From assembly GCA_021833825.1 (NCBI GenBank), contig JAKBEL010000021.1:65687-112113 (forward strand): a stretch of 46,427 nucleotides of DNA, read 5' to 3'. Each line of letters starts with the position of its first letter. Positions within the stretch are counted from its first letter, which is position 1. The notes under the pieces are model-generated. The model saw nothing but the letters and a program-made list of their open reading frames with translations. It did no database searches and was not told the origin of the DNA. The position numbers were made by a program, and so were the translations under genes. This document shows, in pieces, positions 1-28,957 of this stretch. Source of the DNA: a bacterium (GTDB lineage Bacteria; Babelota; Babeliae; Babelales; Vermiphilaceae).

Positions 1-887
1 TAGATCAGACCATCTTGTCTCTGGTTGAAGATATTGACCCACGAGTGATATCAATACAATCGTCGATTGATAATACAGTTAACTGTTGCAGTGCAGTGAA
101 CGTGATCGATACAAGAACAGCATCAATATATGATGTTGATCAAACGATCCTATCATTAGTTGAAGATATCGACCCGCGAGTGATATCGATTCAATCATCG
201 ATTGATAATTCAGTTAACTGCTGTAGCGCAGTCAACGTGATCGATACAAGAACAGCATCAATCTATAACGTAGATCAGACGATCTTGTCATTGGTTGAAG
301 ATATTGACCCTAGAGTGATATCGATTCAATCATCGATTGATAATTCAGTTAATTGTTGCAGTGCAGTCAATGTAATAGATACAAGAACAAGTAGTATCTA
401 TAATGTAGATCAGACTATCTTGTCTCTGGTTGAAGATATCGATCCTAGAGTGATATCAATTCAATCATCGATTGATAACTCAGTTAACTGCTGCAGTGCA
501 GTCAATGTGATCGATACAAGAACAGCATCAATATATGATGTTGACAGAACTATCTTGTCATTGGTTGAGACAATAGCTGTAGCTGGTGACGCATGTAGTT
601 GTATTAATGTTCTTCAGAGTGATCTAGATGCTATAGCTACTCTGCTTGAAGCAAATTTTAGTGCAACAGCGGTTATAGGATCAGTTGTGGAAGGTATCTC
701 TGCTGATTTAAGTCTGCTACCTGTGATTGACAGTAAATGTAGTAATATTCTTTATAACATTGGCTCTCGATCAGATTTTGCATATAGTCAGACTGATCAG
801 TTAAGTACTATAGATCAGATTAATGCATTAGATCTGTCAGTTATTGCATGGCTCAAGACATTACTTGCAGATTTACATGGCTTGTAA
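1..887 (+). CDS. Tandem-repeat protein, 5' end outside window
   Basis: The reading frame is open from the first base, so the start codon lies upstream of the window. The visible part holds four almost identical 45-residue units (at 15-149, 150-284, 285-419 and 420-554) plus a partial, diverging fifth. Each unit carries the pattern LSLVEDIDPRVISIQSSID, then a CC pair, then VNVIDTRT. The residues after about base 555 (VLQSDLDAIATLL, then a Ser- and Asp-rich tail) are related in style but not repeated. Hydrophobic residues are regularly spaced, which suggests a helical or fibrous stalk. I recognise no catalytic domain. Such proteins are usually exported in this kind of bacterium, but the signal peptide would be outside the window. 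A strong hairpin terminator follows the stop codon. Confidence 0.8.
   Translation, partial: DQTILSLVEDIDPRVISIQSSIDNTVNCCSAVNVIDTRTASIYDVDQTILSLVEDIDPRVISIQSSIDNSVNCCSAVNVIDTRTASIYNVDQTILSLVEDIDPRVISIQSSIDNSVNCCSAVNVIDTRTSSIYNVDQTILSLVEDIDPRVISIQSSIDNSVNCCSAVNVIDTRTASIYDVDRTILSLVETIAVAGDACSCINVLQSDLDAIATLLEANFSATAVIGSVVEGISADLSLLPVIDSKCSNILYNIGSRSDFAYSQTDQLSTIDQINALDLSVIAWLKTLLADLHGL
15..554 (+). repeat. Four 135-bp near-identical in-frame tandem repeats
   Basis: Units start at 15, 150, 285 and 420 with an exact 135-base period. They differ at only a few positions, mostly synonymous or conservative (for example ASIYD versus SSIYN). The partial unit at 555 keeps only its first residues (LSLVE). 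Low divergence between units suggests recent duplication or continuing homogenisation by recombination. More units probably lie to the left of the window. Confidence 0.9.
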
Positions 888-27038: not shown

Positions 27039-27941
27039 TTATGGCTTATATTCTATAGGCTGTTGTCCAAATGGAATGATATTTTCAAGCTTATCGTTGA
27101 GGGGTATAGCATTACCAAAGAGTTCTTTATTTATAATAGTCTCTATCAAATTTGAAACATTATTCTCGTATTTGTCTTTAATCAATTCCTCTTGATCCTG
27201 TACATCAAAATATTTTTCTGTCCCATCATGCTGTTTTGTAATTATTCTTGCAAACACATAGCGGGGAGCTGGAACGGACATCTTATCTTCGTAATTGCTT
27301 GGTGTAAGATAGATGGATGAAAAATTATTGTGATTATACGTTGTTATGTAAAATTGATCGTTTGCAATTTCAGTGGAGTCAGATGCTGCTTTGATATAAA
27401 AATGGGCAGTATTTGGTTGGACGGTAATGTTTTGGAAGTAGTCTGCGAAGGGACTCTTGCCTGGAAAAATAAGCTTTAATTGCCATGGTTGATCATGTTG
27501 ATTGATAAATACAAGTAGGTGATCAGAATTTTCGTTCATATTTTCAATGAGAGCTTTTAACTTTGCAATGAGGTCTTCCTTCATTTCTTCGGTTAGCGGT
27601 GCTTTCTTTCCTTCTTCTTCTGCTACTACTACTTCTTCCTCTTTCCCTTCTTCTTTCTCTTTCTCTACTTCTTTTTCTTTCCCTACCCCTCTTTTGTTCA
27701 TCTTATAAAAGCATAAACCGCCAGCGCATACAATAGCTGTAGTTGTTGCGGCGGCCCCTATGAGAGCTTTTTGGCCTGTTGTTAAGTTGGACCACCCGGA
27801 AGATAATGAGCTGATCCATTGGCTGGCCGATTGTCTCAAGTTTGAAAAGTACTCGCTCCAGCTTGTTGCGCAGATATTTCCACTTGATCCGATAATAATT
27901 CCGATTAAAAGAGTAACTTTTATGATGGTATTATGCTTCAT
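27039..27941 (-). CDS. Exported protein, paralogue of next gene, under a poly-C promoter
   Basis: The start at 27941 (MKHNTIIKVTLLIGIIIGS) has GGAG just before it. An upstream in-frame ATG at 27953 lacks one. A signal peptide is followed by a short region with 'QWISSLSSGWSNLTTGQK', then a membrane span (about residues 60-78) and a very charged K/E/V-rich stretch. The C-terminal domain of about 190 residues is beta-rich ('LVFINQHDQPWQLKLIF', 'SIYLTPSNYEDK'). I recognise no family. The N-terminal third is clearly related to the neighbouring gene at 28115-28810 (shared SxxWSNLTxxQ). The promoter carries an 11-C tract in its spacer, so expression may switch on and off. Confidence 0.8.
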   Translation of the reverse strand: MKHNTIIKVTLLIGIIIGSSGNICATSWSEYFSNLRQSASQWISSLSSGWSNLTTGQKALIGAAATTTAIVCAGGLCFYKMNKRGVGKEKEVEKEKEEGKEEEVVVAEEEGKKAPLTEEMKEDLIAKLKALIENMNENSDHLLVFINQHDQPWQLKLIFPGKSPFADYFQNITVQPNTAHFYIKAASDSTEIANDQFYITTYNHNNFSSIYLTPSNYEDKMSVPAPRYVFARIITKQHDGTEKYFDVQDQEELIKDKYENNVSNLIETIINKELFGNAIPLNDKLENIIPFGQQPIEYKP

Positions 27942-28009: not shown

Positions 28010-28048
28010 ATTATAAATTATAAATAAGGGGGGGGGGGTAAAAGTCAA
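28010..28048 (-). promoter_or_regulatory. Promoter with 11-base poly-C tract in the -35/-10 spacer
   Basis: Read on the minus strand: TTGACT (28043-28048), then TTTA, eleven C (28028-28038), TTATT, then TATAAT (28017-28022), with a second TATAAT at 28010-28015. The spacer to the first TATAAT is 20 bases, three more than the ideal 17. Gain or loss of one to three C by slipped replication would change promoter strength, as in known phase-variable promoters of Neisseria (porA, opc). The tract is the longest G/C homopolymer in this AT-rich window. Confidence 0.7.
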
Positions 28049-28114
28049 TGCTTTGCCAAAAGATGTTAAAATGTTTACATAATATGCCGGTCGTCTCTTA
28101 TCAGCTCTGAATAT

Positions 28115-28859: not shown

Positions 28860-28889
28860 ATTATACATAAAGTAACCACAGCATTGCAA
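28860..28889 (-). promoter_or_regulatory. Promoter TTGCAA-18-TATAAT
   Basis: Minus strand: TTGCAA at 28884-28889 and TATAAT at 28860-28865. Upstream of it, ATGTAAACA (plus-strand positions 28914-28922) matches the same sequence upstream of the poly-C promoter (28072-28080). The two promoter regions are therefore probably duplicates. Confidence 0.65.
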
Positions 28890-28957
28890 TTGTTTTATCA
28901 AAAAGCATTATGCTGTTTACATAATTTTGAGAGATGGTCAGTTGACTGAAAAAAGTG

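Follow-up and report, generated by a model that had tools for sequence, protein, structure and literature searches.

Homopolymeric C and G tracts in the promoter spacers of exported-protein genes in Dependentiae: a candidate set of phase-variable promoters

In the stretch of DNA analysed here (the window, 46,427 nucleotides in full), eleven consecutive C residues lie between the -35 and -10 elements of one promoter, which raises the question of whether the tract is a switch that sets the level of an exported protein, as in the porA and opc promoters of Neisseria meningitidis. Re-reading of the coordinates in the sequence confirmed the minus-strand TTGACT-20-TATAAT arrangement with its eleven C exactly as the first-pass annotation had described it (Table 1). 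The tract is a pure G/C homopolymer that lies wholly inside the -35/-10 interval, and the spacer is near the functional range, where the gain or loss of one to three bases would matter. No other G/C run in the 46-kb window exceeds 5 bases; the promoter that holds the tract is one of just two TTGAC(N)-15..22-TATAAT pairs found there, and the promoter score of the locus was matched by shuffled flanks at p = 0.003 (0.3%). The second TATAAT is probably not the -10 partner of TTGACT. The promoter sits approximately 75 nt 5' of a gene for a signal-peptide protein and, from the position of the -10 element, a 5' leader of approximately 70 nt is predicted.

Table 1. Positions in the window of the tract promoter, the gene downstream of it and the neighbouring paralogue.
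Feature	Position	Strand	Basis or remark
-35 element TTGACT	28043..28048	minus	direct reading of the sequence
Promoter spacer TTTACCCCCCCCCCCTTATT = TTTA-C11-TTATT, 20 nt	28023..28042	minus	
C11 homopolymer within the spacer (G11 on the plus strand)	28028..28038	minus	
-10 element TATAAT	28017..28022	minus	
Second TATAAT, immediately 3' of the first, 27 nt from the -35	28010..28015	minus	
300-aa exported protein gene	27039..27941	minus	start MKHNT..., SD GGAG; longer ORF from 27953
ATGTAAACA, common to the paralogue's upstream region	28072..28080 (copy: 28914..28922)	minus	
Upstream paralogue, 231 aa	28115..28810	minus	41% identical across the N-terminal ~93 residues
Upstream paralogue's promoter TTGCAA-18-TATAAT, without homopolymer	28860..28889	minus	internal comparison

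The gene opens with MKHNTIIKVTLLIGIIIGSSGNICA at 27941, with the GGAG motif just 5', and its product is laid out as a signal peptide, a second hydrophobic segment, a Lys/Glu-rich linker and a C-terminal domain of unknown fold. Pfam and NCBIfam gave no match for this protein and no family for P0001 or P0002; the structure predicted for P0001 from its single sequence had a mean pLDDT of 36 and is not interpretable, and a search with P0001 across 84,980 species yielded no relative. The promoter of the neighbouring paralogue and the upstream element that it has in common with the C11 locus are present as claimed. The conclusion that had been drawn from this pair, namely that the tract was gained by one copy of a duplicated unit, does not hold: of the three paralogues of the family, one has C11 (spacer 20), one, on contig C16, has C9 (spacer 17) and one has no tract (spacer 18), and a simple gain by one copy is rejected because the tract is present in two of the three. 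A DUF4030 match of the C16 paralogue was weak and under its cut-off, and was disregarded.

The window is part of contig C7 of the source genome (1.23 Mb, 23 contigs, 96% complete). The earlier description of this genome as poor in long G/C runs is correct for the window and incorrect for the genome, in which counts drawn from pattern searches and fetched stretches gave 17 runs of at least 8, where composition predicts approximately 2. When the run-length decay of the window (approximately 0.18 per base) is extrapolated, approximately 10 runs of exactly 7, approximately 2 of at least 8 and 0.4 of at least 9 are expected, and the numbers observed for lengths 7, 8, 9, 10 and 11 are 13, 8, 7, 1 and 1; the excess therefore starts at length 8, and it is this genome-wide excess that is itself the signal. 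The runs of exactly 7 lie within ORFs in 8 of 13 cases. Those of at least 8 lie nearly all 5' of genes or at gene 5' ends, and 10 of the 17 fall inside TTG-(15-20)-TANNNT spacers, against 2.6 expected from shuffled flanks (P approximately 4e-5); genome-wide, homopolymers are both overrepresented and located where expression is controlled. By inspection, the runs at C1:4392, C14:44266 and C19:104814 lie just 5' of the TTGAC(A/C) -35 element of a signal-peptide gene, and those at C23:722 and C23:5010 precede signal-peptide genes that have interrupted G runs in their own spacers. A G8 at C2:32336-32343 (L005) separates two possible start codons at the beginning of a gene for a PAP2-family exported protein. 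A G9 at C16:16972-16980 (L016), a candidate reading-frame switch, spans codons 3-6 of a gene of the NamZ family (exo-beta-N-acetylmuramidase) and is in frame in the assembled sequence.

The ten tract-spacer promoters of the source genome carry runs of 8 to 11 and all precede signal-peptide genes, which represent at least four families unrelated to one another: that of the window gene, an MFVTKKR family, an MKKRLLLL family, and exported ankyrin-repeat proteins (Pfam Ank, E 2e-45) together with a gene that has the same promoter. The coding strand carries C in the window's family and G in the three others and it is therefore the length of the tract, not its sequence, that recurs. The ankyrin-repeat group includes two tandem exported genes with near-identical 5' parts (C23:21552 and 22941; L172), each behind TTGAC-G9-ATTTTGC-TATACT.

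Two congeners of the source genome, Ca. Dependentiae bacterium OFTM133 (G001) and a second genome (G002), have the same arrangement. An E. coli-type promoter score alone missed most of their loci, because the hexamers there are TTGC[AT]T and TAACAT, and was replaced by the TTG/TANNNT test with shuffled flanks as the null. The tracts found in spacers number 9 in G001 against 1.7 expected and 8 in G002 against 1.4, which brings the three genomes of the genus to 27 of 44 runs against 5.7 expected; 200,000 simulations peaked at 18. The export of the products was judged by a crude rule, from signal-peptide-like N-termini, and by this rule all 27 downstream genes qualify, compared with 18 of 46 genes of the window (Fisher 3e-8). 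In G002, a C10 promoter (L132, C8:102661) precedes the gene for an 880-aa exported protein with a UDP-glycosyltransferase-like part and an adenylate kinase. In G001, runs of C9, C31 and C68 stand at a contig end (C39:139-249, L127) and probably arose as an artefact of sequencing or assembly.

Copies that are otherwise near-identical differ in tract length; these copies are paralogues and not strains, with one genome per species and no second strain found in two scans of genome contigs. Four promoter-gene units of G002 with near-identical flanks carry 9, 10, 10 and 12 C, with spacers of 18, 19, 20 and 21, and the indels of their promoter regions are essentially confined to the tract (one unit has an extra T in the flank); in the source genome, paralogues differ by 8/9 and 9/10. 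Over 34 loci, with spacers of 15-21 and tracts of 8 to 13, tract length is weakly anticorrelated with the remainder of the spacer (rho -0.37, P 0.03), although paralogous promoters are not independent observations. The variable-spacer design of porA and opc, to which the locus had been likened, is thus well supported in its anatomy, which recurs at approximately 27 loci in three congeneric genomes and in other families, and the instability of the tract is indicated indirectly, by the paralogues of near-identical flanks.

It is conceivable that the tract is instead a fixed part of the promoter with a structural or regulatory role, such as a regulator site or stiff DNA that keeps the promoter weak, with no switching involved. 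In favour of this, the TTGC[AT]T-C8..12-TAACAT promoters of G001 and G002 keep the position of the tract and its flanks, and tract length is equal in several paralogues (9/9/9 on contig C40 of G001, 9/9 on C23 of the source genome and 9/9 on C20 of G020). Nevertheless, we consider this improbable on three grounds: first, versions with C and with G on the coding strand both occur in unrelated promoters of one genome. Second, tract lengths range from 8 to 13, and the promoter indels of G002 fall in the tract only. Third, among three paralogues on one contig (C23:722, 2304 and 5010; L171) the same spacer holds a pure G8 in one copy and interrupted runs (GGGAGGGG and GGGGTGGG) in the other two, and the locking of a once-variable spacer fits this better than a conserved binding site; the interrupted spacers look as if switching was locked. 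Two of these three paralogues have an additional C8/C9 run farther upstream.

Beyond the genus, 101 Dependentiae genomes were searched, and the pattern TTGCN{1,7}C8N{3,14}TANNAT gave 36 matches, at 34 distinct places, spread over 14 genomes from seven families, against 1 match for the reversed C-tract pattern used as a control. Outside family f1, the matches with a called downstream gene nearly all precede signal-peptide genes, by rule or by eye. The G-type pattern (TTGA...G8...TANNNT) gave 19 matches against 8 for the control across the phylum, among the matches listed, and in these it is clear in the source genome (8) and in G054 (4) only and near background elsewhere. In G054, a member of another family, four TTGAC..G10-11..TA promoters on contigs C9 and C12 (L259, L268, L270 and L272) precede exported proteins, three of the four genes belonging to an MKKI(V/L)MGL family. 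Several genomes outside the window's genus have a small or absent excess of runs and the design is therefore recurrent, not universal. Two stray matches to a promoter pattern, in Parabeggiatoa (L179) and Bacteroidales (L184), are at about chance level by estimate.

This distribution bears on the notion that the loci descend by repeated duplication from a single promoter-gene cassette, in which a homopolymer had arisen by chance, and that the tract has no function. Many of the loci are indeed paralogous cassettes, but such neutral inheritance is already disfavoured, and very improbable, given at least four unrelated families with differing flanks and strand orientation in the source genome alone, the spread of tracts across seven Dependentiae families, the decay that would be expected of pure runs of 8 to 13 if not maintained, and the tie of the tracts to signal-peptide genes. 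The single-locus view and the implausible C31 and C68 runs with which the G001 contig begins might suggest that the homopolymer arose in an AT-rich promoter by chance or is an artefact of assembly. This reading is very improbable, and for the set it is refuted by the enrichment in number, position and gene class and by the same tract placement in independent assemblies of other species.

It is therefore suggested, with a probability of roughly 0.78, that the C11 locus belongs to a multi-locus set of phase-variable promoters of the porA/opc type that drive exported-protein genes. The position and purity of the tracts, their enrichment, their association with signal-peptide genes and the length differences between paralogous promoters are observed; from these sequence features we infer that the tracts slip within a population, affect transcription and play a part in the interaction with the host. 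The C11 tract would make the spacer of a sigma-70-type promoter hypermutable: at replication, slipped-strand mispairing would add or remove C residues and shift the -35/-10 distance, which is 20 nt at present and would be 17 nt with 8 C, the changed spacer would change promoter strength, and the level of the exported protein would differ from cell to cell. The window locus is one of approximately ten promoters of signal-peptide genes in the source genome with a C or G run in the spacer, and the arrangement is present also in congeners and other families. Against switching, MutS and MutL are both encoded and slippage would be lower because of their presence, which also rules out lost mismatch repair as the cause of the tracts; the commonest class of tract, 8 to 9, is at the short end for high-rate switching; and the observed spacers tend to 18-21 instead of centring on 17, partly because the runs examined are all of at least 8. 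There is an even chance that the whole forms a mainly transcriptional phasome, in which many unrelated exported proteins, including ankyrin-repeat proteins, are independently switched by G/C runs in spacers, so that each cell shows its host a different combination of exported proteins.

Members of the phylum Dependentiae parasitise single-celled organisms, probably living as obligate intracellular parasites of protists, and such hosts are without adaptive immunity; phase variation has mostly been studied in animal pathogens and commensals. These bacteria may randomly switch what they export; if so, an uncultured phylum of protist parasites would be using the same contingency strategy against its single-celled hosts. 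The tract set is furthermore a shortlist of exported proteins for a phylum in which most of the secretome has no known function. A literature search covering few subscription journals returned nothing relevant that links Dependentiae or Babela to phase variation, homopolymers or slipped-strand mispairing.

The opc promoter of Neisseria meningitidis has a poly-C run between its -35 and -10 elements, the length of which sets the spacer, and its product is exported. In Mycoplasma hyorhinis and Bordetella pertussis, repeats lie near or within the core promoter of surface-protein genes; these promoters are like the tract promoters in having repeats and differ in repeat base, phylum and gene families, and to our knowledge no homology between them is to be expected. 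Experimentally, porA transcription depends on the poly-G run in the promoter spacer, and one base more or fewer alters transcription; the same source describes the repeat-containing promoters of M. hyorhinis and B. pertussis (PMC3899988), and Sarkari et al. 1994, by its title as cited in PMC5084427, concerns the opc promoter. The promoters described here resemble porA (poly-G) and opc (poly-C) in that the length of a pure G/C run sets the -35/-10 spacer, and the product is predicted to be exported from its signal-peptide-like N-terminus. The length-dependent expression measured there is a prediction here, and here many promoters of one Dependentiae genome carry the tract. For Chromulinavorax destructans, the passages searched report signal peptides on 44% of proteins and many exported ankyrin-repeat proteins, a class represented here by the two tandem genes with G9 spacers; the word promoter is absent from the main text of that paper and those passages contain no mention of switching (PMC6561590). 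Many G/C homopolymer contingency loci per genome are likewise found in the phasomes of Helicobacter canadensis (PMC2823697) and Campylobacter (PMC6321876). In H. canadensis, G runs of at least 9 vary in read data and 5 of 29 tract genes are promoter-associated (PMC2823697), compared with 10 of 17 runs in promoter spacers in the source genome, where only the run of the NamZ gene clearly lies within a reading frame, close to the start of that frame. The kind of system is already known; what is new is the organism that carries it, how many loci there are and that tracts in promoter spacers predominate over those in reading frames.
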